From Microbispora sp. H11081 (GTDB taxonomy: Bacteria > Actinomycetota > Actinomycetes > Streptosporangiales > Streptosporangiaceae): a stretch of DNA of 64,000 nt. Shown here piece after piece: positions 6,966 through 33,919 of the stretch. Position 1 is the stretch's first letter. Every line of letters starts with the position of its first letter. The notes under the pieces were generated by a model. That model worked only from the letters and a program-made list of their open reading frames with translations. It was not told the DNA's origin and ran no database searches. The translations under genes and the position numbers were made by a program. The DNA is taken from positions 434,001 to 498,000 of the forward strand of contig NZ_JABBWV010000002.1 in the NCBI RefSeq assembly GCF_012999535.1, in the 5' to 3' direction.

Positions 6966-7107
6966 CGCCCCTTCCTCTCGCCGGGGCCTCCAGCGTCCTG
7001 CCCGTGAGGCCGTCGCGGGCAGAGGCGGACGGGCAGGACCGCCGGCCGGAGGTCCCGGCGTGCGGAGGCCCGTCGCCCCTTCCGCGTACGGCGCGGGCGG
7101 GGCGATC

Positions 7108-8841
7108 TCAACCGGGCAGGGGGACGCTCCATTCGAGGTGGGTGCCGCCGGTCTCCGGGGAGGTGACGGTGCAGGCGCCGCCGAGTTGCTCGGCGCGTTC
7201 CGCGAGGTTGCGCAGGCCGCTGCGGCGGCCCTGGGCGGGGATGCCGACGCCGTCGTCGACGACCAGGAGTGTCAGCCGCCCGCCGGCGGCGCGGACGGTG
7301 ACGTCCGCGCGGCCGGCCTTGGCGTGCCGCACCAGGTTCGACAGCGCCTCGCGCAGCACCGCGAGCAGATGCCCGGCGATCTCGGCGGGCACGTCGTTGT
7401 CGAGCCGGCCCTCCAGGCTCAGACCCGGCATGAAGCCCAGATGACCGCGGGCGCCCTCGACCAGATCGACGACCTGGGCCCGCAGGCTGGGCGCGCTGTG
7501 CTCCCGGGGGGTCTGCAGAGCGAAGATCGTCGAGCGGATCTGGCGGATCGTGGTGTCGAGTTCGTCGATGGCGGTCTGCAGCCGCGAGGACGCCTCGGGC
7601 CGCTCGACCAGGCGCACCGCGCTCATCAACGTCATCGCCACGGCGAACAGCCGCTGGATGACCACATCGTGCAGGTCCTTGGCGATCCGGTCGCGGTCTT
7701 CCAGCAGTCCGAGCCGTTCGGCGTCGCGGCGGGCCTCGGCCAGTTCGAGCGCGATGGCCGCCTGCCCGGCGAAGGCGTGCAGCATCCGCAGCTGCGACTG
7801 GCTGAACGGCATCCGCCCCGGCCGCTTGACCAGGGCGAGCACCCCGTGCACCGCCCCCGGCGCGCCCAGCGGCACCACGGCCACCGGTCCCGCGTCAGGA
7901 CTCTCGGAACCGGCCGGCCACACCTCGCCGCCCGGGTCGTCCAGCGCCTGCGGCTCGCCGCTGAGGAACGCGCGGCCCGCCAGCGAACCCTCCACCGGCA
8001 CCTGCCCCTCGCCGGGGGCGCTCTCGCCGGGGGCGGCGCCGTCGCCGGTGGTGTCGGCGGGGGCGGTGTCCCGCAGGGCCACGCGCAGGGTTTCGCGGCC
8101 TGGGCCGGGCAGCAGGATCGCCGTGGTGTCGGCGTCTGCCATCTCCCGCGCCCGCCGCGCGATGAGCGTCAGGACGTCCTGCGGCTCGCCCCCGGACAGC
8201 AGCCGGGTCGTGATGTCGGACGAGGCCTGCAACCAGGTCTCCCGCCGCCGGCTGTCCTCGTACAACCGGGCGTTCTCGATCGCGACGCCCGCGGCGGTGG
8301 CCAGGGCCACGACGATCGCCTCGTCGTCTTCGTCGAAGTCGCCGCCGCCGCGTTTCTCGGTCAGGTACAGGTTGCCGAACACCTCGTCGCGCACCCGGAT
8401 CGGCACCCCGAGGAAGCTGCCCATGGGGGGATGCCCCGGGGGGAATCCGTAGGACTCCGGGTGGGTGGAGATGTGCGACAGCCGCAGCGTCTGCGGCTCC
8501 TTGATCAGCAGGCCGAGCAGGCCCAGCCCGTGCGGCCAGTGCTCGATCCTGGCGATCTCCTCCTCGCTGAGCCCAACGGGGACGAACTGGATGAGGGTGT
8601 TGTCCTCCCCGATCACGCCCATCGCCCCGTAGGTCGCGTCCACCAGCGTCGTCGCGGTCCCCACGATCCGGCGCAGCACGACCTCCAGGTCGAGGTCGCT
8701 GCCGATCGACACGACCGCCTCCAGCAGCGCGTGCACCCGGTCGCGCGTGGCCAGCACCGCTTCGAGACGCGACTGCAACTCGGCCAGCAGATCATCCAGC
8801 CGCATGCCGGGAAACAGCGGCCCCTGCTCGTTCTCCCTCAT
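7108..8841 (-). CDS. DevS/DosT-like two-GAF sensor histidine kinase
   Basis: The protein has 577 residues. GAF-A spans about 38-190, GAF-B about 205-370, the HisKA_3 dimerisation helix carries RIAKDLHDVVIQRLFA with the phospho-acceptor His391, and a HATPase_c domain follows (DVTVRAAGG... LLVVDDGVGIP near the end). GAF-A closely follows DevS/DosT of Mycobacterium tuberculosis, including the GHPPM stretch (His137) in the region that holds the haem-binding histidine there, followed by FLGVPIRVRDEVFGNLYLTEK. It should autophosphorylate and sense a gas or redox ligand. There is no response regulator next to it, so it is an orphan kinase. No clear Shine-Dalgarno precedes the ATG. Confidence 0.9.
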   Translation of the reverse strand: MRENEQGPLFPGMRLDDLLAELQSRLEAVLATRDRVHALLEAVVSIGSDLDLEVVLRRIVGTATTLVDATYGAMGVIGEDNTLIQFVPVGLSEEEIARIEHWPHGLGLLGLLIKEPQTLRLSHISTHPESYGFPPGHPPMGSFLGVPIRVRDEVFGNLYLTEKRGGGDFDEDDEAIVVALATAAGVAIENARLYEDSRRRETWLQASSDITTRLLSGGEPQDVLTLIARRAREMADADTTAILLPGPGRETLRVALRDTAPADTTGDGAAPGESAPGEGQVPVEGSLAGRAFLSGEPQALDDPGGEVWPAGSESPDAGPVAVVPLGAPGAVHGVLALVKRPGRMPFSQSQLRMLHAFAGQAAIALELAEARRDAERLGLLEDRDRIAKDLHDVVIQRLFAVAMTLMSAVRLVERPEASSRLQTAIDELDTTIRQIRSTIFALQTPREHSAPSLRAQVVDLVEGARGHLGFMPGLSLEGRLDNDVPAEIAGHLLAVLREALSNLVRHAKAGRADVTVRAAGGRLTLLVVDDGVGIPAQGRRSGLRNLAERAEQLGGACTVTSPETGGTHLEWSVPLPG

Positions 8842-8904
8842 GACGCGAAGTCTGGCATCGCCGGAGGGCGGGTGCCCAGTGGGCGTCCCCCCGTGAGAGG
8901 CGAC

Positions 8905-10323
8905 TCAGGCGTACAGGACGGAGAGGAACCGGACGAGGACCGCCTCGCGGGACGCGGCGGGCAGCGCGTCGAGCACGGCGTTCACGACCGCCATCCCGGA
9001 CTGGCCGGCGCCGGCGAGGTCGATCCCCACCGACGCGGCGAGCTCGGCGAACGTGGCGTCGTCCAGCGCGTCGAGGTCGAGGGACGCGATGAGCTCGGGC
9101 AGGCCGTCGGGCACCTCGGCCAGCCCTCTCTTCCGCGCCGCCTCGGACGCCTCCGCGATCACCTCCAGCATCGCGCCGACCCCCGCCAGCGTCACGCCGG
9201 TGACCGTCACGTGGATGTTGGCCGGGATCCCGGCGTACGACAGCTGCGGCTGGAGGAACCAGCCGAGCCTGCGCGCCTCGTCGGCGAGCACGAAGACGTC
9301 CACCTCGGGGGAGCCCGCGATGGCGACCAGCGCGGCCTCCGGCTCGCCCAGCACCCGCAGGCCGGGGATCTCGCGCACGCCCTCCACCAGCCGCCTGGTC
9401 GCCTCCAGCGTCCTGCGGCCGAGCTCCAGGTAGCCCTCCCGGCCGAGGGCCCGCAGGGTCGCCCAGGCGCCGCCGAGCGGGCCGGCCGACCGGGAGCTCT
9501 GCGCGGTGGCGTTGACGATCGTGTAGCCGGGCCAGGCCGCCGAGGCGAAGTAGGCCCTGCGGCGCAGTTCCGCGTCGCGGAACAGCAGCACCGACGCCCC
9601 CTTCGGCGCGTACCCGAACTTGTGCAGGTCGCAGGAGATCGAGGTGACGCCGGGCACGCTCAGGTCGAAGGGCGGGACCGTGGCGCCCGCCGCGCGCAGC
9701 CACGGCAGCAGCCAGCCGCCGACGCAGGCGTCCACGTGGCACGGCACGCCGCGGGCGGCGGCGAGCGCGGCGACCTCCTCGACCGGGTCGACGACGCCCT
9801 GCGGGTAGGACGGCGCGGAGACGACCGCCAGCGCGGTCCGCTCGTCCAGGGCGTCCTCGAACGCCGGGACGACGGCGCGGTAGGTGGCGAGGTCCACCGG
9901 GACCGGCACGATCTCCATGCCGAGGTAGTGCGCGGCCTTGTGGAACGCCGGGTGCGCGGTGACAGGGAGCACGATCCGGGTGGCGCCGGGGCGGGCGTCG
10001 CGGGCGGCCTTCACCGCCAGCATGATCGACTCGGTGCCGCCGCCGGTGAAGATGCCCGGCGCGCCGGGACGCCCGAGCAGCTCGGCGACCGCCCCGACGA
10101 CCTGCCGCTCGAGCGCGACCATGCTGGGGAAGGCCGTCGGGTCGAGCATGTTGACCTCGAGCATCTCCGCGTACGCCCGATGCGCTGCCTCGTGCACCTC
10201 CGGCAGGCCGGTGTCGTAGACGTAGGCCGTCACCTTGCCGCCGCGGACCGGAAGGTCGGCGGCCTTCAGCGCGGTCAGCTCGGCGAGCAGTTCGGCGACG
10301 GGCATGCCGTGGTCGGGAAGCAT
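8905..10323 (-). CDS. PLP-dependent sphingosine-1-phosphate lyase/group II decarboxylase-family enzyme
   Basis: This 472-residue fold-type I PLP enzyme has TGGGTESIMLAVKAARD (cofactor phosphate region), HVDACVGGWLLPW (cofactor-ring Asp) and SCDLHKFGYAPKG, where Lys235 forms the Schiff base. ASVLLFRD and YTIVNATAQSSRS are typical of the Dpl1/sphingosine-1-phosphate lyase branch rather than glutamate decarboxylase. The reaction would be cleavage or decarboxylation of a phospho-amino-alcohol or amino acid; bacterial members are rarely characterised, so the substrate is open. The ATG at 10321-10323 has GAGGAG 5 nt upstream, which favours it over a TTG four codons earlier. The gene is single, and its 241-bp upstream region shows no clear signal. 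Confidence 0.8.
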   Translation of the reverse strand: MLPDHGMPVAELLAELTALKAADLPVRGGKVTAYVYDTGLPEVHEAAHRAYAEMLEVNMLDPTAFPSMVALERQVVGAVAELLGRPGAPGIFTGGGTESIMLAVKAARDARPGATRIVLPVTAHPAFHKAAHYLGMEIVPVPVDLATYRAVVPAFEDALDERTALAVVSAPSYPQGVVDPVEEVAALAAARGVPCHVDACVGGWLLPWLRAAGATVPPFDLSVPGVTSISCDLHKFGYAPKGASVLLFRDAELRRRAYFASAAWPGYTIVNATAQSSRSAGPLGGAWATLRALGREGYLELGRRTLEATRRLVEGVREIPGLRVLGEPEAALVAIAGSPEVDVFVLADEARRLGWFLQPQLSYAGIPANIHVTVTGVTLAGVGAMLEVIAEASEAARKRGLAEVPDGLPELIASLDLDALDDATFAELAASVGIDLAGAGQSGMAVVNAVLDALPAASREAVLVRFLSVLYA

Positions 10324-10564
10324 GGAACTCCTCAACGTGCCAGGGGGATCCGGACGACGGCGCGCGGTCCGGGGGAGGCGTCCTCCAGGTGGACCGTACC
10401 GCCGGTGGCCGTGGGCCCGCGCGCCGGTGACCGGCGTGAGGGGCGGGCGGAAGCCGGGCGCGACGGCGCCGGACGATGCCGCCGATCATGTATGGCGTAA
10501 GTGCTGCTTTTTGCCGTTCTTTGTCGCTAGTGTTGCGCCGGACCTCTCACCCAAGGCGGTGTGC

Positions 10565-11041
10565 ATGCGGCACTTCTTCGGGCTGCTCGTGGGCGTTGTC
10601 GTCGCGGCGGCTCTTCTCCTCGGTGGTGGATGGGCGTCACAGGAGGCGGTCCGGGGAGCGGCCCAGAGCGTCGACCCCGCCAACGACACCCGCATGCTGA
10701 TCGCCCTCGGCGTGATGGCCGTCGCGGGGCTGCTGCTCGGGCTGGTGCTGGTCGGCAGGGTGTCCCCGCTGGCGGCGTTCGTCCCGTCGATGGCCCTGCT
10801 GGCCTGGACCGTGGTCTACGTGCTCGACGTGTCGCGCGCCGCGAGCCTCGTGCCCACCGGGCCGTCGGTGGAGGCCGAACTGCTGCAGGCCGGCCGCGGC
10901 ATGCTCACGCTGCTGTCCACCGGCGTGTACGGCCTGCTCGGCGTCGCGTTGTTCCTCCCGGTGCTCATGCCGTCTCGCTGGGCAGGTCGCGAGCGGGAAG
11001 AGGAGCAGGATGAGGAGTACGAGGAGTCCCTCGGCTTCTGA
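10565..11041 (+). CDS. Four-helix integral membrane protein of unknown function
   Basis: The 158 residues contain four hydrophobic segments (FFGLLVGVVVAAALLLGGGW, LIALGVMAVAGLLLGLVLVG, LAAFVPSMALLAWTVVYVL, GVYGLLGVALFLPVLM). A highly acidic cytoplasmic tail follows (REREEEQDEEYEESLGF). I do not recognise the family. The start is the ATG at 10565 behind AAGGCGG. The frame extends upstream without a credible start. Its last 77 bp overlap the 3' end of the convergent ABC ATPase gene. Confidence 0.7.
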   Translation: MRHFFGLLVGVVVAAALLLGGGWASQEAVRGAAQSVDPANDTRMLIALGVMAVAGLLLGLVLVGRVSPLAAFVPSMALLAWTVVYVLDVSRAASLVPTGPSVEAELLQAGRGMLTLLSTGVYGLLGVALFLPVLMPSRWAGREREEEQDEEYEESLGF

Positions 11042-11771
11042 GATACAGGTCGGCCACCACGTCCTCGATCGACGCCCGTCCCGGCGCCGTCGCGCGCAGG
11101 TCGTCCACCGTCCCGTCGAAGGCGAGCCGGCCGTGGTCGATCAGCAGCACCCGGCGGCACAGCCGCTCGACGTCGCCCAGGTCGTGGGTGGTCAGCAGCA
11201 CGGTCGTGCCGCGTTCGGCGTTGAGCCGCCGCAGGAAGTCGCGCACCTCCGCCTTGCTGACGACGTCGAGCCCGATCGTCGGCTCGTCGAGCACCAGCAC
11301 GGCGGGGTCGTGCAGCAGGGCGGCGGTGATGTCGCCCCGCATCCGCTGCCCGAGGCTGAGCTGGCGCACCGGCGTCCGCAGGAAGCCGCCCAGGTCGAGC
11401 AGGTCGGCCATCTCGTCCAGCCGCTCGCGGAACACCTTGCGATCTACTTTGTAAAGGAGCCGGACCAGTTCCAGGCTGTCCCGCAGCGGCAGGTCCCACC
11501 ACAGCGTCGTCCGCTGGCCGAAGACCACGCCGATCCTGCGGGCGAGAGCCGTACGTCGCCGTGAGGGGTCGAGACCGGCCACGGTGACCCGGCCAGACGT
11601 GGGCGTGAGGATCCCGGTCAGCATCTTGATCGTGGTGGACTTGCCCGCGCCGTTCGGGCCGAGGCAGGCGGCGAACTCCCCGGCCGCGACGCGGAAGGAC
11701 AGGTCCCGTACGGCGTGCACGACCTGGCGGCGGACCGTGAAGGTCCTGCCGACCCCGTCTGCCTCGATCAC
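10965..11771 (-). CDS. ABC-2 type exporter, ATP-binding subunit
   Basis: The 268 residues include Walker A (GPNGAGKST, 38-46), a Q-loop in VVFGQRTTLWWDLP, the signature LSLGQRMRGD, Walker B with VLVLDEPTIGLD, and the H-loop in LLTTHD. The FGQRTTLWWDLP form is characteristic of ATPases paired with PF06182 (ABC-2 family) permeases. Those permeases are the next two genes, 3 nt and 9 nt upstream on the same strand, so the three form one exporter operon whose first gene is at 13370. Relatives are annotated as viologen/drug exporters; the substrate here is unknown. The C-terminal ~26 residues are encoded in the overlap with the convergent membrane-protein gene. Confidence 0.9.
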   Translation of the reverse strand: MIEADGVGRTFTVRRQVVHAVRDLSFRVAAGEFAACLGPNGAGKSTTIKMLTGILTPTSGRVTVAGLDPSRRRTALARRIGVVFGQRTTLWWDLPLRDSLELVRLLYKVDRKVFRERLDEMADLLDLGGFLRTPVRQLSLGQRMRGDITAALLHDPAVLVLDEPTIGLDVVSKAEVRDFLRRLNAERGTTVLLTTHDLGDVERLCRRVLLIDHGRLAFDGTVDDLRATAPGRASIEDVVADLYLRSRGTPRTPHPAPLPARDLPSETA

Positions 11772-21887: not shown

Positions 21888-23180
<1,293 letters not shown>

Positions 23181-23345
23181 CTCCGGTCACTCCCTTGTTG
23201 CGTACGTTGGCGTCACCTGGGGCTTGCTTCCGAGTTTGTGTCGATATCAAGACACCCACAAGCCGACGGCTACCGAAAGAATGACAAAATTTCCTTGAGA
23301 TGCAAGACTGGGCGGTATTAGTCAGCGAAGAAACGCGAAGTTTTA

Positions 23346-23365
23346 CGATTGGACTAGACCAATCG
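23346..23365. promoter_or_regulatory. Operator-like dyad between aceA and ramB
   Basis: Perfect 7-bp arms CGATTGG and CCAATCG flank ACTAGA, whose CTAG core is itself palindromic, so 18 of 20 positions are symmetric. It lies 59 bp before the ramB start and 165 bp before the aceA start. It is not the published corynebacterial RamB box. Confidence 0.55.
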
Positions 23366-23424
23366 GGTGGCCTGGATCATGTGCCTCTGGAAGAACCACC
23401 GATTTTCCACATAGGATCGGGTTC

Positions 23425-24897
23425 ATGACCTCCGTGCTGGGCGAAGAACCGCTGTCTTTGACGCAGGAGCTCGATCTGCTGGCCTTCGGCCAGCGGCTCA
23501 AGCACCTGCGCAAGCAGCGCGGTCTCACGCTCTCCGAGCTCGGCGACCGCGTCGGGCGGGCGCCCAGCCAGCTCTCACTGCTGGAGAACGGCAAGCGCGA
23601 GCCCAAGCTCTCGCTGCTGAAGTCGCTGGCCGCCGCGCTGAACGTGCCGGTGGAGGAGCTGCTGCGCAGGCAGGCGCCGAACCGGCGGGCCCAGCTGGAG
23701 ATCGCCCTGGAGGAGGCCCAGCGCGACCCGCTCTACGCGGGGCTCGGCCTGAGCCGGCTGAAGGTCTCCGCGCGGGTGCCCAACGAGGTGCTTGAGCACA
23801 TCCTCGGCCTGTTCGAGGAGCTCAAGGCCAGGGAGGCGAAGGGCACGGCCACGCCGGAGGAGGCGCGGGCGGCCAACGCCGAGCTGCGGCGCAGGCAGCG
23901 CGAGCTGGGCAACTACTTCGAGGAGATCGAGAAGGCCGCCGCCGTGGCGCTGACCGCCGTCGGCTACCGGGCCGGCGCGCTGTCGGAGAGCACCGTCCAG
24001 GCGCTGGTGTCGCACTTCGGGTTCACCGTCCACACCGCGCCCGACCTGCCGCGGTCGGCGCGTTCGGTGACCGACCTGCGCAACCGGCGCATCTACGTCA
24101 AACGCCAGCACCTGGGCATGCACACGCCGCGTACCGTGCTGCTGCAGACGCTCGGGCACATCGCGCTCCAGCACCACAAGCCGGGCGACTTCGCCGACTT
24201 CCTGCGGCAGCGGGTGGAGGCCAACTACTTCGCCGCGGCCGTTCTCGTGCCCGAGACGGCGGCCGTGCCGTACCTGCGGGAGGCCAAGCAGGACAAGGCG
24301 CTGTCGGTGGAGGACCTGCGCGACGTGTTCGCGGTGTCCTACGAGATGGCGGCGCACCGGTTCACCAACCTGGCCACCCGCCACCTCGACCTGGTGTGCC
24401 ACTTCGTCCGCAACGACGCCGGCGGGATCATCTACAAGGCGTACGAGAACGACGGGATCGTCTTCCCCGCCGACGAGCAGGGCGCGATCGAGGGGCAGCG
24501 GCTGTGCCAGCAGTGGTCGGGCCGCCAGGTCTTCCACTCGCCGGACCGTTTCTCGCTGTACTACCAGTACTGCGACTCGCCCACCGGCACGTACTTCTGC
24601 GTCGCCCACGTGGACCCGTCGCAGGAGAAGGACTTCGCGATCACCCTGGGCGTGCCCTACCGCGAGTCGCGGTGGTTCCGGGGCCGCGAGACCACCCACC
24701 GCACCAGGTCGAACTGCCCGAACGGCGAGTGCTGCCGCCGCCCCCCGGCGGAGCTGGCGCAGCGCTGGGAGGGCTACGCCTGGCCGTCGGCGCGCACCAA
24801 CTCCCACGTGCTGGCCGCGCTGCCGCCCGGGTCGTTCCCCGGTGTCGACGAGGCCGACGTGTACGCGTTCCTGGAGCGCCACGCCGCCGGCGGCTGA
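23425..24897 (+). CDS. ramB: RamB-like XRE-family regulator of acetate/short-chain fatty acid metabolism
   Basis: The 490-residue protein has an XRE helix-turn-helix at about residues 18-75 (LKHLRKQRGLTLSELGDRVG, SQLSLLENGKREPKLSLLKS), a central IrrE/ImmA-like region and a C-terminal DUF2083 domain. This is the architecture of RamB and the 'short-chain fatty acyl transcriptional regulators'. The protease-like motif reads TLGHIALQHH, so a canonical HExxH is not present. Cysteines in SNCPNGECCRR near residue 425 may bind a metal. The divergent isocitrate lyase gene is the expected target. The ATG is well placed after the GGATCGGGTTC leader. Confidence 0.9.
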   Translation: MTSVLGEEPLSLTQELDLLAFGQRLKHLRKQRGLTLSELGDRVGRAPSQLSLLENGKREPKLSLLKSLAAALNVPVEELLRRQAPNRRAQLEIALEEAQRDPLYAGLGLSRLKVSARVPNEVLEHILGLFEELKAREAKGTATPEEARAANAELRRRQRELGNYFEEIEKAAAVALTAVGYRAGALSESTVQALVSHFGFTVHTAPDLPRSARSVTDLRNRRIYVKRQHLGMHTPRTVLLQTLGHIALQHHKPGDFADFLRQRVEANYFAAAVLVPETAAVPYLREAKQDKALSVEDLRDVFAVSYEMAAHRFTNLATRHLDLVCHFVRNDAGGIIYKAYENDGIVFPADEQGAIEGQRLCQQWSGRQVFHSPDRFSLYYQYCDSPTGTYFCVAHVDPSQEKDFAITLGVPYRESRWFRGRETTHRTRSNCPNGECCRRPPAELAQRWEGYAWPSARTNSHVLAALPPGSFPGVDEADVYAFLERHAAGG

Positions 24898-25988: not shown

Positions 25989-26011
25989 CGGTGTTACCGT
26001 TGGTAACACCG
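25989..26011. promoter_or_regulatory. Perfect operator-like palindrome in front of the acyl-CoA dehydrogenase gene
   Basis: Ten-base perfect arms CGGTGTTACC (25989-25998) and GGTAACACCG (26002-26011) flank a GTT spacer. It ends 18 bp before the ATG and just before the GAGGAGAGGAG ribosome binding site, so a bound repressor would block transcription. The GTTACC/GGTAAC form suits a TetR-family fatty-acid regulator, but none is adjacent. Confidence 0.7.
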
Positions 26012-26029
26012 AGGAGAGGAGCGGCGGAG

Positions 26030-27241
26030 ATGACCTTCTGCCCCGAATTGAACGACGACGTCCGCGAGGTGCGGGACTGGGTGCACGAGTTCGCCAACGA
26101 CGTCGTCCGCCCGGCGGGTGCGGAGTGGGACGAGCGCGAGGAGACGCCCTGGCCGGTCATCCAGGAAGCGGCCAAGATCGGGCTGTACTCGCTCGACTTC
26201 TTCGCGCAGCAGTGGTTCGACGAGTCGGGGCTCGGCCTGCCCGTGGCGTTCGAGGAGTTGTTCTGGGGGGACGCGGGCATCGGCCTGTCGATCGTGGGCA
26301 CCGGCCTCGCCGCCGCCTCCATCGCCGCGAACGGCACCCCCGAGCAGATGGGGGAGTGGCTGCCCCAGATGTTCGGCACTCCCGACGACGTCAAGCTCGG
26401 GGCGTTCTGCTCCTCGGAACCCGACGCCGGCAGCGACGTGGGCGCGATCAGGACCCGGGCCGTCTACGACGAGGCCCGGGACGAGTGGGTGCTCAACGGC
26501 GTGAAGACCTGGGTCACCAACGGCGGCATCGCCAACGTCCACGTCGTCGTGGCCACGGTCGACCCGTCCTTAGGCACCCGGGGTCAGGCGTCCTTCGTGG
26601 TCCCGCCCGGCACCCCGGGCCTGTCCCAGGGGCAGAAGTTCAAGAAACACGGCATCCGCGCCTCCCACACCGCCGAGGTCGTCCTGGAGGACGTACGGGT
26701 GCCGGGCCGGTGCCTGGTGGGCGGCAAGGAGAAACTCGACGAGCGGCTCGCGCGGGTGCGCGCCGGCGAGCGGTCGGGCGAGCAGGCCGCGATGCGGACC
26801 TTCGAGACCACCCGCCCGCTCGTCGCCGCCATGGCCGTCGGCGTCGCCCGCGCGGCCTTCGAGTACGCCCGAGGCTACGCCCGCGAGCGCGAGCAGTTCG
26901 GCCGCAAGATCGGGGAGAACCAGGCCGTCGCCTTCCTGCTGGCCGACATGGCCACCCGCGTGGACGCCGCCCGCTTCATGACGTGGCGGGCCGCGTGGAT
27001 GGCCCGCCACGGCAGGCGCTTCGAGCAGGCGGAGGGCTCGATGAGCAAGCTGGTCGCGAGCGAGACGGCCGTCTGGGTGACCGAGCAGGCGATCCAGATC
27101 CTCGGCGGGGCCGGCTACACCCGCGAGCACCCGGTCGAGCGCTTCCACCGCGATGCCAAGATCTTCACCATCTTCGAGGGCACCAGCGAGATCCAGCGTC
27201 TCATCATCGGCCGCGCCGTCACCGGCCTCCCCGTCCGCTGA
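26030..27241 (+). CDS. Acyl-CoA dehydrogenase
   Basis: The 403-residue flavoenzyme oxidises an acyl-CoA to the 2-enoyl-CoA. The family marks are CSSEPDAGSDVGAIRTRA (FAD/substrate contact), VLNGVKTWVTNGG, the Arg-rich FAD site REREQFGRKIGENQAVAF, QILGGAGYTREHPVERFHRDAK, and the catalytic-base region IFEGTSEIQRLIIGR with the Glu expected in medium/short-chain enzymes. The ATG at 26030 is chosen over an upstream in-frame start because GGAGAGGAG precedes it and the palindrome lies upstream. Its neighbours aceA/ramB suggest a shared role in fatty-acid use. The chain length cannot be told. Confidence 0.93.
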   Translation: MTFCPELNDDVREVRDWVHEFANDVVRPAGAEWDEREETPWPVIQEAAKIGLYSLDFFAQQWFDESGLGLPVAFEELFWGDAGIGLSIVGTGLAAASIAANGTPEQMGEWLPQMFGTPDDVKLGAFCSSEPDAGSDVGAIRTRAVYDEARDEWVLNGVKTWVTNGGIANVHVVVATVDPSLGTRGQASFVVPPGTPGLSQGQKFKKHGIRASHTAEVVLEDVRVPGRCLVGGKEKLDERLARVRAGERSGEQAAMRTFETTRPLVAAMAVGVARAAFEYARGYAREREQFGRKIGENQAVAFLLADMATRVDAARFMTWRAAWMARHGRRFEQAEGSMSKLVASETAVWVTEQAIQILGGAGYTREHPVERFHRDAKIFTIFEGTSEIQRLIIGRAVTGLPVR

Positions 27242-27279
27242 TCGGCCGGAAGACTTCGTTGAGGCGCATCTGGTCTTCC

Positions 27280-27307
27280 GCCGGCGGCTAGCCTTTCAGC
27301 CGCCGGC
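27280..27307. terminator. Hairpin separating the acyl-CoA dehydrogenase gene from the accessory cassette
   Basis: Perfect 10-bp arms GCCGGCGGCT (27280-27289) and AGCCGCCGGC (27298-27307) with an 8-nt loop lie between convergent genes, so it can terminate from both sides. It marks the downstream edge of the cassette. Confidence 0.7.
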
Positions 27308-27325
27308 AGAGTCGCGCCCAACTGC

Positions 27326-29308
27326 CTACGCGGAGGAACGTCCGGGGTCATCCAGGCTGGCCGCACCGCGGCGGCGATCGGGGGTCATCCACGCCTTGCC
27401 CTCCGCCGCGACACCCTCGAGGACATGCAGAGTGTGGCGGAGTCCGGCCGCGTCCAGCGATACCTCGGAGACATCTTCCAGATCCTCGGACTGCTGGTGT
27501 TCCGCAAGCTCCGGCCCGATCATCTGAGCGGTGATCTTCTGGCCGTCCATCAGGGAGAGCTCGAAGGTGTGCGAGTTGTCGTCCGACTGCCGCACATGGA
27601 CGGCCGTGACAGCCTCGAAGCGGTAGTTCAGCCGATTCCGATCATGGAATGTCCCGTCCGGGAAGTGAAGCCTGGCGTTGTACTGTCGTACCCCGTCGGC
27701 GGTGATGACGAAGATCTTCATGTCGTATTTCCGGTACCGCCAGGGTCCGCCCTGTATCCGCGCCCGGGTGGCGGAGCCACTCCGCGCCTCGATGAAGGCG
27801 TAAGCGACGACGTCGCTCATCTTGAGCCGGTAGTGCCGTAGTGCCTCGTTCAGCAGCACTTTGCGATCGCAGTCCAGCCAGGCGGCCATCTCCCCATCGT
27901 CGGGCTTGTTCGCGAGACGGCGCCTCCATCGAGCGTAGGCCGCCGCGCACTCGGCCGACAGCTTCTCGTAATCAGACCAGTCGGCGGCATACCGGCGGCG
28001 TTCGAAGGCGATCCGCAGCCAGGCGCGCCCGGCCATCCAGCCGGCCGCGATGGCCAGAACGACGAGCGTAATTCCGGTAGGCCCGCTGACCTGCACTGCG
28101 CTGCCGATCGCCCAAGCTCCTCCGGCAGAGAAAGCCATCGTGCCGAACACGGCTGTGACTATCGTGCGCGAGGGAGTGGCCAGTTCCTGACGGTAGCTCC
28201 ACAGCGTGCCATCAGCCCATCGGTGCGCCACATCACAGGCCCGATGGCGGATCAGCCAGTTGATCGCCTCGACCTTGGTACCCCTGTCGCGATAGGCGTC
28301 CGCCACCTGATCCCGCATGCGTCTGCGGACGCCGGCTGTCCACATGAGCCACACCTCGCGGTCCATCCCGGTCGGCCCATACTTGGCGAGGTAGTACGCG
28401 AACCGATGCTCGATTCTCCGCGCGTAGCGATCAGGGGGCGTGTCGGTTCTGAGGCGTGGTGTCAGCGCGTACGCCTCGTCCAACGCATGGCGACGCCCGG
28501 AACGGAAGCGCCACTCCAGGCCGGCACGGGCGGCGAAACAACCGCCGACGATGCTCAGCAGGTAGGCGAGCAGAGCGGAGGCCCTGCCGCCCTGAACCAG
28601 CAGCAGGCCGATGTGCGCGGTCGCCGGGACGGACACCAGCGTGCCCGCCACCGCCTTCAGCCACGTCGGACCGGGAACCGTTGGCAGTTCGGGCCGCCGT
28701 ACTTCGGGAGCGGCCGGTTCCGGTTCGAAGAACTTCCAGACCCGATCCTCGCGGCTGCCGGTTTTCTGCCGCGCGCAGGCGTCCCGAAGTGTGAGATGCC
28801 ACATCTGGTCCTTGATCGACCCATCGAGGAACAGCTCCATGTGGCGCAAGATCATGATCCGCTCCGCCGGACGGAGATCGTCGAGCTCCGCTATCAGATG
28901 GCGGACGTCCGCGTCGGGTTTCTCCGCGGCGTCCAGCAGCCGGCGGATGGTTCGCACACCGTCCGCCCAGGAGTCGTCACCCGTCAGTGGGAGAAAGCGG
29001 TCGGAGTCGCGGAGGCGGGCCGCCTCCTGGGCGGACAGCTCCCGGCGGGTCCTACCGCTGACCATGGCGAGCGGCCAGTAGAAGCACACCCGATTCGTGA
29101 TGTAGTCGGATGCGAGCGCCTCGTCGATGAGCCGCAGAGCTCGACCCGCCGCCCCACCCTCCAGGAAACGCACGCCGATCTCGAACTTCTTCTCTGGTGG
29201 TGAATCCGGGTCGACTGCGTAGTAGTAGACGTCGCCGTGCACGATGCCCTGCACCCCGACTTGAGCATCGTCGCTCGCGACGTTCGTGGTGTCCTGCGGC
29301 GGCGTCAT
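27326..29308 (-). CDS. Four-helix membrane protein with N-terminal RHIM-like motif; putative partner of the nucleosidase
   Basis: This is the last gene of the cassette (660 residues). Residues 7-30 hold TTNVASDDAQVGVQGIVHGD, nearly the same motif as in the preceding nucleosidase. Residues ~38-95 are helical (EIGVRFLEGGAAGRALRLID), resembling a module I recall from Streptomyces signalling proteins. Two pairs of membrane helices lie at about 216-262 and 381-430, with soluble domains between and after. The C-terminal ~200 residues include an EARSGSATRARIQGG stretch and strands of unknown fold. The start ATG overlaps the nucleosidase stop by 4 bp (ATGA), so translation is coupled. No enzyme motif is recognised. 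I infer a membrane-acting executor or receptor. Confidence 0.8.
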   Translation of the reverse strand: MTPPQDTTNVASDDAQVGVQGIVHGDVYYYAVDPDSPPEKKFEIGVRFLEGGAAGRALRLIDEALASDYITNRVCFYWPLAMVSGRTRRELSAQEAARLRDSDRFLPLTGDDSWADGVRTIRRLLDAAEKPDADVRHLIAELDDLRPAERIMILRHMELFLDGSIKDQMWHLTLRDACARQKTGSREDRVWKFFEPEPAAPEVRRPELPTVPGPTWLKAVAGTLVSVPATAHIGLLLVQGGRASALLAYLLSIVGGCFAARAGLEWRFRSGRRHALDEAYALTPRLRTDTPPDRYARRIEHRFAYYLAKYGPTGMDREVWLMWTAGVRRRMRDQVADAYRDRGTKVEAINWLIRHRACDVAHRWADGTLWSYRQELATPSRTIVTAVFGTMAFSAGGAWAIGSAVQVSGPTGITLVVLAIAAGWMAGRAWLRIAFERRRYAADWSDYEKLSAECAAAYARWRRRLANKPDDGEMAAWLDCDRKVLLNEALRHYRLKMSDVVAYAFIEARSGSATRARIQGGPWRYRKYDMKIFVITADGVRQYNARLHFPDGTFHDRNRLNYRFEAVTAVHVRQSDDNSHTFELSLMDGQKITAQMIGPELAEHQQSEDLEDVSEVSLDAAGLRHTLHVLEGVAAEGKAWMTPDRRRGAASLDDPGRSSA

Positions 29309-30468
29309 GACAAGGCCTGCGCCAGAGCAATGATGGCCGCCAGCTCCGTTGCCAGCTCACCGACATCACCCACGAGCCCGCGGAGCTTCTTGAGGGCCAG
29401 GGTCAGCCTGCTCTTGCTCTGCGGGGCCTTCGAGCGCAGAGCCTCGTTCGCCACCGTGAGCTCCGCCTCCGCCGCTGCGTAGGTGTCCTCGTCCAGGCGG
29501 CCGTCCGCATACGTCCGTTCCAGCCGGGCGCGGAGCGCGGCGAGCGCCTGCTCCAGGTCAGCCGGGTCACCCGGGTCGGGTCCGAACCGGACGCCGCCGT
29601 GCACGACGCCCGCCTGCACGCCGACCCGGGCGTTGTCGCGTGCGATGTTGTACGTCGTCCCCTGCTCCGGCATGGTGGATCCCTTCGCCGCCGTCTTCGT
29701 CAGCCAGCCGCCGTCCCGGTCCTCGGCGGCGATCTCTTCCGCCAGCGCGGCCGCGAACGCCGCGGCGTTGGCCACGGCCCGCTGCTGCCACTTATCGCGG
29801 TCGGTCACCTCCTTGGTTCCGTCGGCCCGGTCGCTGATTCCCCTGACGACGACCACGGGCAGAGCCCCGTTCAGGTGGCCCGCCTGGGCCACTCCAGCGC
29901 CTTCCATCTCGATGGCGCAGGCGTCGTGATAGTTCTGGCGAATCCACTGCGCGTGCCCGGACACCCTGGAGTTCAGGACCACCTCACCGGCCGCGATCGG
30001 GCCGAAGTGCACGTGCGGGGCATGGCCGGGATCGGTGAGCCCACGCGTCCACGCGCCTGTGCGTCCGATGTGCCGCGCGATCTGGTCAGCGGAGTGCGAA
30101 GTCTCCCAACTGCGGGGACGGCTCTTGAGCCCGTCGTCCTCGCTCGTTCCCCCGTGATAGGCGTAGATACGGGTCGCCACCACGACATCCCCGAGGGCGA
30201 TGTGGGAGTGCAGGGCACCCGCCACGCCCACGAAGAGCAGAGCAGCCGGGGCGAACTCGGCGATGGCCCGCTCGGCCAGCACGGCCGCTGACTGATTACC
30301 CGCGCCGACAAGGGTGAGTGCCAGCTGGCAGCGTCCACCACGGAGACGGCCGACCTCGAATCGAGTGCCGTGTTGATGACGACGCAGCTTCGGGTCGACC
30401 AGCATTTCCTGGACTGCCTGGTATTCCAAGTCCAGCGCAGTGAGAATCACGATCGGACGGTTGCTCAC
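29305..30468 (-). CDS. MTA/SAH-type nucleosidase (phosphorylase superfamily) fused to a RHIM-like motif and a helical domain
   Basis: The protein has 387 residues from a GTG at 30468, which has AAAGGAG 5 nt upstream and lies 2 nt after the Nudix stop. Residues 1-~248 are a PNP/UDP phosphorylase-fold nucleosidase: GVAGAL (81-86), AIEMEGAGVAQ (185-195, ribose-binding Glu) and RGISDRAD (209-216, catalytic Asp213). Residues 269-296 hold TTYNIARDNARVGVQAGVVH and the following GGVRF, then a ~90-residue all-helical domain (LEQALAALRARLERTYADG... KKLRGLVGDVGEL). The enzyme should cleave an N-glycosidic bond of a nucleoside or nucleotide. In conflict systems such domains destroy nucleotides or NAD-like signals. 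A second start may exist at 29673. Confidence 0.85.
   Translation of the reverse strand: MSNRPIVILTALDLEYQAVQEMLVDPKLRRHQHGTRFEVGRLRGGRCQLALTLVGAGNQSAAVLAERAIAEFAPAALLFVGVAGALHSHIALGDVVVATRIYAYHGGTSEDDGLKSRPRSWETSHSADQIARHIGRTGAWTRGLTDPGHAPHVHFGPIAAGEVVLNSRVSGHAQWIRQNYHDACAIEMEGAGVAQAGHLNGALPVVVVRGISDRADGTKEVTDRDKWQQRAVANAAAFAAALAEEIAAEDRDGGWLTKTAAKGSTMPEQGTTYNIARDNARVGVQAGVVHGGVRFGPDPGDPADLEQALAALRARLERTYADGRLDEDTYAAAEAELTVANEALRSKAPQSKSRLTLALKKLRGLVGDVGELATELAAIIALAQALS
29671..29685 (-). promoter_or_regulatory. Possible internal translation start within the nucleosidase gene
   Basis: An in-frame ATG at 29671-29673 (MPEQGTTYNIARDNARVGVQ) is preceded on the minus strand by AAGGGA (29680-29685) with 6-nt spacing. 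It would yield a 122-residue protein made only of the RHIM-like motif and the helical domain. The head resembles the N-terminus of the next gene product (MTPPQDTTNVA). Confidence 0.45.
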
Positions 30469-30470
30469 TC

Positions 30471-31196
30471 TTACTCCTTTGCGCTCGGTGACGCGGCGGG
30501 CCGGACCATCGGCGGATAGAGGACTGTGCATGGACCGGCTCGAAACAGCCGGGCCGGCCGGCCGGTAGTGGCTTTGCGGGCTGTACCTGCCGGGAGGATG
30601 AAACCCTCGGTCTTCTGAACCTTGCGATAGAAGTTCCTTGGGTCGAGCGAGATCCCCCAGACCGCCTCGTACACGTCTTGCAGATCGGTGATGGTGAACG
30701 TCGGTCCACAGAAGGCCGTGGCTAGGGAGGAGTGCTCAAGTTTGACGCGAGCGCGTTCTACGCCATCCGTGATGATGCGCCGGTGGTCGAAGGCGAGATC
30801 GAGGTCGCCGGAAAGCACCCGCTCGATAGGTTGCCATGCTGCGTCGGCTGCGTCCGTTCCCGCGATCGGCTCCGGAAGGCGGGGTGCGATGGCCAGGTAC
30901 GCCACCGACACCACCCGGCCACGCGGGTCACGCCCCGGGTCTCCATAGACGCCCAGTTGCTCAAGGCTGAGGCTTTCGACGTCGAGATGGGCCTCCTCCG
31001 ACAGCTCCCGATGGGCGGCGGCGATGATGTCCTCTTCGGCGTGCTGCAGGAATCCGCCGGGCAGTGCGAGGGCCCCCTTGTGCGGCTCGATACCGCGCTC
31101 GATGAGCAGCACATGCAGGCGCGACTGCCGCAAGGTCAGGATCACCAGGTCGACGGCGAGGAGAACGACAGGCGGCACCCAATGGTCCTCGGTCAT
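30471..31196 (-). CDS. NrtR-like Nudix/winged-helix regulator
   Basis: The 241-residue protein has a Nudix box at 47-71 (GGFLQHAEEDIIAAAHRELS, then EEAHL; one residue longer than the consensus between the Gly and the RELxEE core). YGDPGRDPRGRVVSVAYLA follows, as in NrtR and ADP-ribose pyrophosphatase relatives. Residues ~158-228 are the NrtR-type C-terminal winged helix (GPTFTITDLQDVYEAVWG, NFYRKVQKTEGFI, GRPARLFR). NrtR regulators sense ADP-ribose and repress NAD-related genes. No ribosome binding site is visible; TAGCCT at 31204-31209 could give a leaderless mRNA. A dyad at 31216-31228 sits above that -10. Its stop codon is 2 nt before the nucleosidase start. Whether it still hydrolyses a substrate is unclear. 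Confidence 0.85.
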   Translation of the reverse strand: MTEDHWVPPVVLLAVDLVILTLRQSRLHVLLIERGIEPHKGALALPGGFLQHAEEDIIAAAHRELSEEAHLDVESLSLEQLGVYGDPGRDPRGRVVSVAYLAIAPRLPEPIAGTDAADAAWQPIERVLSGDLDLAFDHRRIITDGVERARVKLEHSSLATAFCGPTFTITDLQDVYEAVWGISLDPRNFYRKVQKTEGFILPAGTARKATTGRPARLFRAGPCTVLYPPMVRPAASPSAKE

Positions 31197-31215
31197 GCGG
31201 CAGAGGCTAGCTTCT

Positions 31216-31228
31216 TGTCAATCTGACA
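31216..31228. promoter_or_regulatory. Dyad in the promoter of the Nudix regulator gene
   Basis: Perfect arms TGTCA and TGACA flank a 3-nt centre. It lies 20-32 bp upstream of the Nudix ATG, above a TANNNT-type -10 (31204-31209, minus strand), where a repressor would act. Weaker symmetry (TTCT/AGAA with a one-base bulge) extends outward. Confidence 0.5.
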
Positions 31229-31272
31229 GAAATAGCCGCGAGGTAAGACGTTCCAGTCCCGGGACAGGGCGG

Positions 31273-33198
31273 TCAGTGGGGTGGTTCGCCGGTGAGGAAC
31301 TCGTTCAGGGCCGTGATGACGACATCGCGGGACTCCGGGCGTGCGAGGGCGGGCGGCTGGAGCGACGGGTATTTCGCGTAGCCGGCGGATTCGAGCTGGT
31401 GCGGGAGACGGTCCGAGCCCGGGAGGACGCTGAGCCTCTCGGCGAGTCGTGCCATGCGCTCTCGTGACGCGCCGTGGTTGCGGATGGCGCCGAAGTTGAC
31501 GGCCAGGACGGACTTCACCGGGCCGGTGTAGATGCTCCACACGGAGGCGTTGTCCGAGCCGAGGTTGAACCAGGCGGTCACCGACGGATACTCGCCGTCG
31601 CCGAAGTAGTAGTCGTGGAAGGACGGATGGCTCTCCGCGTGGCGGTAGACGGCCAGCAGCGTCTCGCGCACGTCGGCGGGACAGTAGCGCTGGACGGCGT
31701 CGAGGAAGCCGGCCTCGTCCCACGTGCGCTTCACCCGGGGACCGGCCGCCTGTGCCGCATCGGCCGGCAGAGGGGCGCCTCGCGTCTCGCCCGGGCCGGC
31801 GGGGTCGGGGGCGGGAAGGGTGTCGCCGAGGGCGAGCTGGATCGCGATGGCCATCGTTTCGAGCCAGTCGATGGTCGTCTCCGCCTGGTCGGCGGTGATC
31901 GGAGTCTTCTGCCCGGGGCGCCCCGAGTCGTGGTCCGCGGTGTGGGCGATGTTGTTCCTGCGCCAGGCGATCTCTCGCAGCCTCGTACGGACGCCGTCCG
32001 CGGTGATCGGGTTGTTCGCGTCCTGATCGGTCAGGACGTCGGCGACCTTCACCCACAGGTTCACCCTGCTGACGTACGCGAACCCCTCCTTGATTTTGTC
32101 GGGGTTCTGGAAGGTCATGAAGGAGAAATGGCGCTCCAGGTGAGCGCGGAAGGTTTCCCCGAGGGATTCGTCCCCGTAGTGAATTCTCTCGAACAGCTCG
32201 ACGGGGATGCTCAGGCTGTTGAACTTGGGGGGACGAGGCACTCGCGGATTCAAGGCCAGAGACAGGGCCCGGTCGACGATCTCGCGCGTGACCCAGTGGT
32301 CGAGAGCCGCCACGGCCTGGGTCCAGGCCGCGCGATAGAGGTCGGTGACGTCGAAGGAGCCGACTCCGAGCTGCTCCAGGCTGCGGCCGCCGTTGACGAG
32401 CTGCCGGGCGTACTCGATGTTCTGCTGGAACTGCTCGAACGCGGCCGGAGCGGCGTCGGAAGGAGCGGCGTCGGGCGGGGGCGGGAGCTCGGGGCCGTCC
32501 GACGTGGGCAGGACGACGCCGTCCCGGGCGAGCATCGCGCGGAAGCGGTCGGTGGTGACGTGCCGCCGCGGGTCGGCTCGGCCGGCGTGGTCGAAGGCCA
32601 GGCCCTCCTTTTCGAGCACCTCACGCGGGTCATCGGTGCGTTCCGGGTCCGCCCACCGGAACTGGCGGGAGACGCGCCCTCCCGACTGCAGGACGCGGTG
32701 AGCGCCGCCCTGGTCGGAGCTCTCCGCCATGAAGCCTCCGACCGACTGCGCCGACATGCCCACCAGGGCCGCGAGGTCGCCGTACGTGGTCCAGCGGCCC
32801 GGCTCGAGACGCTCCAGGGCCGCCAGGACGACGTTCCAGCGGGGGTCGCTGTAGACGCGGCCCTGCGGCGGCAGTCTCCTCGCCCGGTACTGGCTCGTCA
32901 GCTCGCGGTAGAGCTCGGTGCCCTCGAAGTCGTCGAGCGCGCGGACGCCCTGTTCGGTGATCGCCCAGCCGTTCCTCTTGGTCATCCAGCCGAGCGAGGC
33001 GGCTTCCCCCGTGCGGAAGCCCAGTTGCGCCCACCAGCGCGCCTGGCCATGCGCGTTGGACCCGAGCAACTCCGGAGGGATCGTCACTCTTCTCGCGACC
33101 TCCTCGCGAACCTCCTGTGGTGGCAGCGGCCGTCCGGCCTCACGCAGGAGTTCGAGCGCGGCGCGGAGAATGGGTGAGATCTCGTCGGCATAGGCCAT
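31273..33198 (-). CDS. Mrr_N winged-helix / ATL-like / HEPN multidomain protein, putative nucleic-acid-targeting toxin
   Basis: The protein has 641 residues. Residues 1-~105 look like the Mrr_N winged helix (ILRAALELLREAGRPLPPQE, then WAQLGFRTGEAASLGWM). Residues ~118-225 resemble an alkyltransferase-like domain (WTTYGDLAALVGMSAQSVGG); the usual PCHRV reads GAHRV, with Ala166 replacing the catalytic Cys, so it can bind DNA but not transfer alkyl groups. After a Pro/Ala linker, residues ~255-460 form a HEPN-like helical domain with RNNIAH (Arg414, His419), the RxxxxH ribonuclease motif. The last ~150 residues are unrecognised. The start is the ATG at 33198 with GGCGG 10 nt upstream. The Nudix gene lies 76 bp downstream. 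I infer DNA sensing coupled to RNA cleavage. Confidence 0.8.
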   Translation of the reverse strand: MAYADEISPILRAALELLREAGRPLPPQEVREEVARRVTIPPELLGSNAHGQARWWAQLGFRTGEAASLGWMTKRNGWAITEQGVRALDDFEGTELYRELTSQYRARRLPPQGRVYSDPRWNVVLAALERLEPGRWTTYGDLAALVGMSAQSVGGFMAESSDQGGAHRVLQSGGRVSRQFRWADPERTDDPREVLEKEGLAFDHAGRADPRRHVTTDRFRAMLARDGVVLPTSDGPELPPPPDAAPSDAAPAAFEQFQQNIEYARQLVNGGRSLEQLGVGSFDVTDLYRAAWTQAVAALDHWVTREIVDRALSLALNPRVPRPPKFNSLSIPVELFERIHYGDESLGETFRAHLERHFSFMTFQNPDKIKEGFAYVSRVNLWVKVADVLTDQDANNPITADGVRTRLREIAWRRNNIAHTADHDSGRPGQKTPITADQAETTIDWLETMAIAIQLALGDTLPAPDPAGPGETRGAPLPADAAQAAGPRVKRTWDEAGFLDAVQRYCPADVRETLLAVYRHAESHPSFHDYYFGDGEYPSVTAWFNLGSDNASVWSIYTGPVKSVLAVNFGAIRNHGASRERMARLAERLSVLPGSDRLPHQLESAGYAKYPSLQPPALARPESRDVVITALNEFLTGEPPH

Positions 33199-33200
33199 GG

Positions 33201-33263
33201 GGGGATTTCCGCCTTTCGTCTGTCGCCTCCGGCAGAATAAACAAGGGATCGGTGGAAATCCCC
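33201..33263. promoter_or_regulatory. Inverted repeat in the HEPN gene leader that overlaps its ribosome binding site
   Basis: Arms 33201-33213 and 33251-33263 are complementary at 12 of 13 positions (GGGGATTTCCGCC against GGTGGAAATCCCC), 37 nt apart. On the minus-strand mRNA the second arm contains the GGCGG ribosome binding site and ends 2 nt before the ATG, so pairing would hide it. As DNA it could also be an operator. Confidence 0.55.
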
Positions 33264-33382
33264 GGCTCGGATAACCTTCACATCTCCGTTCGCCGATCAT
33301 CGGCAGAGCGGATCGCAAGGGCGTGCGAACGGGTTGTGCCGACCTGCGAACCACCTCCCGCCTGGGCAAGTACGATCGATCC

Positions 33383-33919
33383 GTGACCGAAATGACCGAA
33401 ACGACGCCAGGCTGGCTCGCTCCCGACGAGATCGAGTCGATGCGGGGCCGGATGCCGATCCTGTACGTGGACGCCGTGCCGGTGCGCGTGGACGACACGG
33501 GCACCGTGACCCGTGTCGGCCTGCTGCTGCGGATCGGCGCCGACGGCACCGTGAGCCGGGCGCTGGTGTCCGGGCGGGTGTACTACCACGAGCGCATCCG
33601 CGACGCGCTTCTGCGCCATCTGGAGAAGGATCTCGGGCCGGTGGCGCTGCCGAGCGTGCCGGTCTCGCCGACGCCGTTCACGGTGGCGGAGTACTTCCCC
33701 ACCCCGGGGGTCACGCCGTTCCACGACCCACGGCAGCACGCGGTCTCCCTGGCCTACATCGTCCCCGTACGCGGTGACTGCCGGCCTCGGCAGGACGCGC
33801 TGGACCTGGTGTGGTTCACGCCCGAGGAGGCGGCCGCCCCGATCGTGCAGCAGGAGATGACCGGCGGTCAGGGCGTGCTGCTCAAGCAGGCGCTGGCCTA
33901 CGTCGGCCGCCTGACCTGA
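33383..33919 (+). CDS. DUF4916 (Nudix-like) protein
   Basis: The 178-residue protein begins with a GTG (VTEMTETTPGWLAPDEIESM) and matches the actinobacterial DUF4916 family, a Nudix-fold family without an obvious Nudix box. Conserved stretches are MPILYVDAVPVRVDDTG, RVYYHERIRDALLRHLEKDLG, and YFPTPGVTPFHDPRQHAVSL. There is no Shine-Dalgarno; TACGAT at 33371-33376 lies 6 nt before the GTG, which fits a leaderless transcript. It is divergent from the HEPN cassette, and the shared 184-bp region makes it the cassette's upstream border. The function is unknown. Confidence 0.8.
   Translation: MTEMTETTPGWLAPDEIESMRGRMPILYVDAVPVRVDDTGTVTRVGLLLRIGADGTVSRALVSGRVYYHERIRDALLRHLEKDLGPVALPSVPVSPTPFTVAEYFPTPGVTPFHDPRQHAVSLAYIVPVRGDCRPRQDALDLVWFTPEEAAAPIVQQEMTGGQGVLLKQALAYVGRLT

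Follow-up and report, generated by a model that had tools for sequence, protein, structure and literature searches.

A conserved actinobacterial three-gene unit joins an NrtR-type repressor to a nucleosidase and a membrane protein with a common RHIM-like motif

A 64,000-nucleotide stretch of the Microbispora sp. H11081 genome (contig NZ_JABBWV010000002.1, positions 434,001 to 498,000; hereafter called the window, to whose numbering all coordinates refer) carries on its minus strand genes for an NrtR-type repressor, an MTAN-type nucleosidase, and a membrane protein. Comparison across genomes indicates that the conserved unit is these three genes, here called the triad, and not the single four-gene cassette with an upstream HEPN gene that was originally predicted from the DNA letters. 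We propose that the triad is an NrtR-gated nucleosidase effector module assembled through a motif common to enzyme and membrane protein, a reading to which we give somewhat better than even chances. An immune or suicide role is probably the best explanation of what its genes encode. The four codirectional minus-strand genes themselves are spaced as first described, with 76 bp between HEPN and NrtR, 2 bp between NrtR and the nucleosidase (which starts with GTG), and a 4-bp overlap between the nucleosidase and membrane-protein genes.

Evidence for the unit comes from 41 loci (L002 and L038 to L077). Five were dropped: L045 and L074, which hold the membrane gene only, truncated; L075, with a membrane-gene match only; L077, for which a BLAST match is absent; and L076, whose contig starts within the nucleosidase gene and whose NrtR is on another contig. 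The 36 loci kept and the window give 37 aligned rows, for which calls of neighboring genes in the fetched loci are rough. NrtR, nucleosidase, and membrane protein stand in this order in 37/37 loci, NrtR adjoins the nucleosidase in every one, and the 4-bp overlap recurs in 34/37. Matches to the membrane protein occur in 5 of the 15 genus genomes surveyed, in 37 of 150 family genomes (a few being fragments), and in 27 of 394 class genomes. Fifteen genomes outside the family matched, and 12 were fetched (G382, G406, and G449 have short matches only); all 14 further loci fetched in the class survey, 12 of them outside the window's family, carry the triad in order, with an NrtR more distant in both sequence and position in L172 to L174. 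Also, in each of the 35 genomes that match the nucleosidase best (E of 2e-83 or better), NrtR adjoins it, albeit split over two contigs in G147, and a Streptomyces plasmid with the triad is the sole match among 72,556 records. As read from these genomes, the triad occurs patchily, as many defence genes do, and both a plasmid copy and a version of the site that lacks it exist. A survey of co-occurrence, suggested with the original prediction, has a divided outcome: the three genes travel together widely, but HEPN was seen beside them in Microbispora only.

The repressor is a recognizable member of its family. Both Pfam domains, NUDIX and NrtR_WHD, score above their cut-offs, and phmmer matches residues 11 to 227 to 3gz5/3gz6 (E = 4e-25); by eye, one residue is inserted in the Nudix box of the window protein. 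The NrtR alignment has 36 rows, since the called start and end of the gene in L038 give an odd overlap and that locus was excluded. Just upstream of the NrtR start, the palindrome core TGTCN5GAC is found in 36/37 loci (shuffled mean 0.1, maximum 2), and the sole exception, L054, carries a variant palindrome. The window palindrome overlaps the NrtR promoter and lies between HEPN and NrtR, and therefore, the triad appears to have a promoter of its own. The sole site with 0 or 1 mismatch in the 7.4-Mb genome is this one. Across 150 genomes, matches with up to 2 mismatches occur in 35, of which 31 have them at an NrtR-nucleosidase locus; G025 has its match upstream of another NrtR, and G053, G095, and G114 have theirs elsewhere. 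These matches number 40 in total, versus 3 for a reversed control pattern. A TAnnnT element follows the palindrome in 31/37 loci, and because the window's TAGCCT stops 7 nt short of the ATG of NrtR, a leaderless transcript is suggested.

We regard the palindrome as a putative operator that NrtR would bind. NrtR proteins classically govern genes of nicotinamide adenine dinucleotide (NAD) metabolism, the site of the Mycobacterium smegmatis protein is given as GTTTTCGA-N7-TCGAAAAC, and ADP-ribose, at 50 mM, is reported to free an NrtR from DNA (PMC6800001). The triad repressor shares with this family the Nudix domain, the NrtR winged helix, and a palindrome next to its own gene. It differs in that its site reads CTGTCA-N3-TGACA, unlike the M. 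smegmatis site shown in that paper, in that it stands on a nucleosidase operon rather than on NAD genes, and in that it scores below the NCBIfam equivalog cut-off.

The nucleosidase is assigned by domain and catalytic residues to the MTAN/PNP superfamily. It matches PNP_UDP_1 (E = 9e-36) and, among PADLOC models, Effector PN-superfamily (E = 1.8e-21) as well as the PDC-M60C model. Residues E15, M188, E189, and D213, which we take to be the MTAN-type catalytic residues, are invariant in 37/37 proteins, and D213 stands exactly where it was first placed. Against NCBIfam, its scores stay under the curated cut-off for each of the 18 models listed. Its C-terminal tail (residues 303 to 386) is predicted to be helical, with ten-residue means of the predicted local distance difference test (pLDDT) of 63 to 91 within an otherwise weak and shallow model. 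The superfamily is also that of PNP-type immune effectors such as Detocs and those of the PADLOC PN-superfamily, and the Detocs effector is reported to cleave ATP (PMC11249213). Unlike Detocs-type systems, the triad comes without a two-component or STAND gene, and the window enzyme is closest to MTAN. In L068 (positions 8001 to 9016), we also observed, between the nucleosidase and membrane genes, a small protein that consists of the motif and a nucleosidase-type helical tail without the enzyme.

The membrane partner has four hydropathic segments, as had been claimed, and across 37 members these form two pairs at about residues 224 to 256 and 389 to 426. The two halves of the protein are homologous, as evidenced by hhalign (probability 96.2, E = 2.6e-9, 123 columns), so that the protein holds a duplicated unit of two transmembrane segments. 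No credible Pfam match was found when the 37 members were scanned (the commonest families hit 2 members each, best E = 5e-4) and ten were rescanned, nor was there a convincing sequence match in the PDB, where the best (E = 0.003) is a designed protein. A C-terminal beta region is suggested by an unreliable structural model.

What links enzyme and membrane protein is a short RHIM-like motif. The string reported earlier is present in both: in the nucleosidase it reads GVQAGVVHG and begins at residue 283, and in the membrane protein it reads GVQGIVHG and begins at residue 18. Across the 37 loci, VGVQAG-like strings are common to the two families. When the nucleosidase motif is searched against its partner, the best match falls within the first 30 residues in 36/37 loci; in the reverse search, the membrane-protein motif lands on the nucleosidase motif in 37/37. 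Related RHIM-like motifs in bacteria have been named BASS3 (PMC12261475, PMC8086366, PMC7889193). The triad resembles the pairs of BASS effectors and NLR proteins as PMC7889193 describes them, with adjacent or overlapping genes, one short shared motif, and a home in filamentous actinobacteria. It differs in that the partner is a membrane protein in which an NTPase domain was not found (an NLR fusion occurs only in a related locus), in that the nucleosidase carries its motif internally and not at the C-terminal end, and in its control by NrtR.

The pairing of NrtR, nucleosidase, and a motif-matched membrane protein is used again in a second module, present in 26 loci (L090, L093 to L095, L105, L106, and L123 to L142). 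Here, an NrtR 51 to 57% identical to that of the window stands beside a different membrane protein and a distant nucleosidase; NrtR is divergent in 25/26 loci and codirectional in L134, and 14/26 have a third gene. Profile comparison found the membrane families of the triad and the second module to be unrelated. A GTCN5GAC core lies upstream of NrtR in 26/26 (shuffled mean 0.6, maximum 3). The motif of this module, NxGxxNxGG...SAVG, is at the C terminus of the membrane protein and the N terminus of the nucleosidase, so the ends are swapped relative to the triad, and it was found in 22/22 pairs assessed. Left out of the 26 were L124 and L136 (wrong frame), L090 (another nucleosidase taken), and L140 (gene order differs); by eye, the correct frames of L124 and L136 show the motif too. 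Cognate pairs score 59.8, versus a mean of 37.3 (0/20,000 permutations); in 10/22 cases one way and 11/22 the other, the top-ranked partner is the cognate one. In a PADLOC scan of eight proteins from four of these loci, strong matches were to the nucleosidases only.

A third arrangement is found in G079 (L088, positions 6082 to 11182), where NrtR, preceded by GTC...GAC palindromes seen by eye, is followed by a 1443-amino-acid fusion of nucleosidase, nSTAND1, and WD40 repeats. This fusion to an nSTAND-WD40 receptor favours the nucleosidase as the effector and leaves the membrane protein as a candidate for the role of sensor or scaffold. Moreover, NrtR and nucleosidase are wired to a partner in each arrangement, through a motif with two unrelated membrane proteins and through fusion with an NLR-type protein, so that the effector is probably the nucleosidase, with its partner probably sensing or serving as a scaffold. 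Tentatively, and with slightly less than even confidence, we extend this to a general actinobacterial class of NrtR-gated nucleosidase immune systems, in which membrane proteins replace the NLR, interchangeable amyloid-like motifs (a RHIM-like one in the triad and, in the second module, the other one with the ends swapped) wire the partners together, and direct fusion to an NLR is a third form.

For the triad itself, we envisage the following sequence of events. NrtR would sit on the palindrome over its own promoter and keep the operon low. When its ligand rises, most likely ADP-ribose or a related product of NAD or nucleotide breakdown, NrtR would be released, and a probably leaderless message would serve all three genes, with nucleosidase and membrane protein translationally coupled. 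Through the RHIM-like motif the two would co-assemble. The membrane protein would serve as a sensor or as a platform for assembly; the nucleosidase, as effector, would release the base of an adenine nucleotide or nucleoside, such that the (infected) cell would be starved or killed. Products of the nucleosidase could also feed back on NrtR. The sequences themselves show the conserved unit, a palindrome nearly confined to it, intact catalytic residues, the matched motif, and renewed use of this pairing in the second module; ADP-ribose sensing, amyloid assembly, an anti-phage role, the binding of NrtR, the substrate, and the direction of the signal are inferences. Because its operator is delimited, its catalytic residues do not vary, and another module follows the same logic, each step is testable.

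Several observations weigh against this scheme. For NrtR, the score against the NCBIfam model for the ADP-ribose-responsive repressor (NF050029) is 122.1 bits, versus a curated cut-off of 400, and the ligand may therefore differ. Four of the 35 NrtR-nucleosidase genomes (G022, G119, G135, and G147) have no palindrome match at 2 mismatches, and in G118, NrtR and nucleosidase are present, but the membrane protein was not found. The AlphaFold2 model of the 660-amino-acid membrane protein is unusable (pLDDT 37). The likeness of the enzyme to MTAN could equally mean a metabolic substrate. For the motif, co-variation between the triad partners is not clearly greater than ancestry would give (partial Mantel r = 0.10, 434/5000 permutations; L054, whose membrane-gene start codon looks mis-called, was excluded), and some control segments equal or exceed this (r = 0.39, 0/1000, for the membrane protein from residue 465; r = 0.12, 13/1000, for the nucleosidase from residue 245). 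The membrane segment from about residue 465 thereby correlates with the nucleosidase motif more closely than the motif of the membrane protein itself, which may reflect the alignment. In the second module, co-variation is weak (r = 0.19, 113/5000), relatedness explains much of the pairing, and by extrapolation to zero distance, relatives would match no worse than cognates. With one published BASS3 peptide, the window proteins score no higher than shuffles, and its likeness to the window motifs is limited to GVQxG; its best local match falls on the nucleosidase motif in 29/37 loci and the membrane-protein motif in 14/37, and a fungal sigma control peptide matched the nucleosidase motif region in 35/37.

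Neighboring genes do not reveal a clear defence island either. The sample held 90 of the 205 eligible called proteins around 20 of the 37 loci and 90 of the 187 in 20 control regions, and PADLOC matches were barely commoner in the 90 neighbor than in the 90 control genes. At E = 1e-15, 27 PADLOC families were matched among neighbors versus 8 among controls. The neighbor families (25 of 27 shown) include mad3 and mad2 in two proteins each and methyltransferase, WYL, IetA, TRIP13, and oxidoreductase in one each, and the control families are mad3 in two proteins and seven DruE models in one each. Since several models can match one protein, distinct proteins can be counted only inexactly, and we claim no significance for the difference.

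Among rival explanations, one reverses the polarity of the module. The nucleosidase would make or remove a nucleotide-derived signal, and the duplicated two-transmembrane protein would be a pore that is opened by motif assembly and executes the cell, which is the order first proposed, minus HEPN. The tandem of two-transmembrane units fits a pore, and in PMC7159879, nucleoside phosphorylase domains are predicted to make a base-release messenger, several times beside SLATT proteins with two transmembrane segments and a predicted pore. SLATT models, however, match only single members of the 37 scanned (E = 0.022 and 0.037), with no match when 10 members were rescanned, and the place of the nucleosidase as the N-terminal domain of the nSTAND-WD40 protein fits an effector. 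We consider this order unlikely, although an executioner role for the membrane protein is kept as one option.

Less likely still is a purely metabolic module, in which NrtR would sense NAD breakdown and induce the nucleosidase and membrane protein for nucleoside salvage or export. It would accord with the classical place of NrtR on NAD genes (PMC6800001) and with an enzyme whose closest relatives in sequence are 5'-methylthioadenosine/S-adenosylhomocysteine (MTA/SAH) nucleosidases. It sits poorly with the patchy presence, the triad-free site, and the plasmid copy, with window flanks that are not NAD genes, with an operator of about one site per genome, and with an enzyme that is motif-matched to a membrane protein and has a homologue fused to an NLR-type protein. 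A selfish addiction module of the toxin-antitoxin kind, with NrtR as autorepressor and nucleosidase/membrane protein as the toxin, is improbable: the operon is small, apparently autoregulated, and found on a plasmid, but no small antitoxin gene was found between the window's three genes, NrtR belongs to a ligand-sensing repressor family, and the unit spans about 3.9 kb with two conserved partners.

The NrtR-gated effector module that we prefer has partial precedents. For conflict systems, PMC9503650 describes operons under Nudix-HTH (helix-turn-helix) regulators for which ADP-ribose sensing is predicted. The Nudix/WYL systems named there are built around a component called ARG and not around a nucleosidase with a motif-matched membrane protein. 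In searches of the open-licence literature, no paper listed appears to describe either the triad or the second module; subscription papers were mostly outside these searches. The review PMC7889193 asks whether bacterial signaling amyloids act outside NLR pathways. The triad is a concrete candidate for such signaling, with a RHIM-like motif common to an enzyme and a membrane protein under a repressor from a family known to sense NAD breakdown, and it would, if the scheme holds, link NAD or ADP-ribose sensing to a nucleosidase effector.

Table 1. Positions of the triad, its elements, and neighboring genes in the window
Feature	Position	Strand	Evidence
NrtR-type repressor (Nudix domain and NrtR winged helix), first gene of the unit	30471..31196	-	Pfam, phmmer, 37 aligned loci
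Nucleosidase of MTAN type; carries RHIM-like motif and helical tail at C terminus	29305..30468	-	PNP_UDP_1, PADLOC, invariant residues
RHIM-like motif of nucleosidase, residues 278-292, DNARVGVQAGVVHGG	29593..29637	-	37-locus alignment, partner match
C-terminal helical tail of nucleosidase, residues 303-386	29311..29562	-	Weak, shallow model
Membrane partner: N-terminal motif and duplicated two-transmembrane unit	27326..29308	-	Hydropathy of 37 members, hhalign
RHIM-like motif of membrane partner, residues 14-27, DAQVGVQGIVHGDV	29228..29269	-	Motif match to nucleosidase
Conserved palindrome, putative operator, TTTCTGTCAGATTGACAAGAAGCTA	31208..31232	-	36/37 upstream regions
Candidate -10 element TAGCCT, 7 nt before NrtR ATG	31204..31209	-	TAnnnT in 31/37
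Strong hairpin without T-run, between the unit and the convergent acyl-CoA dehydrogenase gene	27277..27310	.	Folding
HEPN protein (alkyltransferase-like DNA-binding domain and RX4H HEPN), neighbor outside the unit	31273..33198	-	Pfam, Microbispora comparison
DUF4916 (Nudix-like) gene, divergent, upper flank; start of open reading frame (ORF) uncertain	33323..33919	+	ORF list, Pfam
Acyl-CoA dehydrogenase gene, convergent, lower flank; ORF start uncertain	25991..27241	+	ORF list, Pfam

The HEPN gene is best regarded as a neighbor. The domain calls first made hold, although in the HEPN protein only the MGMT-type DNA-binding domain is above its Pfam cut-off, Mrr_N and HEPN_RiboL-PSP being below theirs. 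The RX4H motif is intact in the window, with R414 and H419 at exactly the positions first given, and the alkyltransferase-like domain has alanine at what we take to be the position of the acceptor cysteine. This domain is largely absent from the HEPN matches of G001, G010, and G013. At the Microbispora site flanked by the DUF4916 and acyl-CoA dehydrogenase genes, HEPN is present in 10 of 15 genomes, and 6 of those 10 have no triad there; in G008, for instance, about 150 bp of triad-free DNA separate the dehydrogenase gene from HEPN. The triad occupies the site, beside HEPN, in 4 Microbispora genomes, and that of G006 is on a different contig. In one of the four, G014 (L073), a complete triad adjoins a decayed HEPN. 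HEPN was not found adjoining any triad fetched outside Microbispora, where L041, L049, L050, L052, and L055 have less than 1.4 kb of contig upstream of NrtR. A system of four genes with HEPN as an RNase arm, for which the four genomes with HEPN and triad side by side and the intact RX4H motif would speak, is thus very improbable, given also the conserved operator and promoter that separate HEPN from the triad and open the unit at NrtR. In G010, HEPN adjoins a fragment (L201, positions 8848 to 9363) that is 59% identical to the C-terminal part of the nucleosidase (residues 213 to 375) and is possibly a decayed or variant module.

At the other end of the unit, the original prediction placed a bidirectional terminator. 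There is indeed a strong hairpin between the convergent genes, within a folded stretch (27262 to 27325) of -37.9 kcal/mol and a z score of -3.8; it is without a T-run, and a consensus terminator scan did not list it. Terminator function for this hairpin is plausible.

Finally, elsewhere in the window (21888 to 24897), an HTH and IrrE-type regulator gene is divergent from a gene that resembles isocitrate lyase, an arrangement that brings to mind RamB-type control of the glyoxylate pathway.

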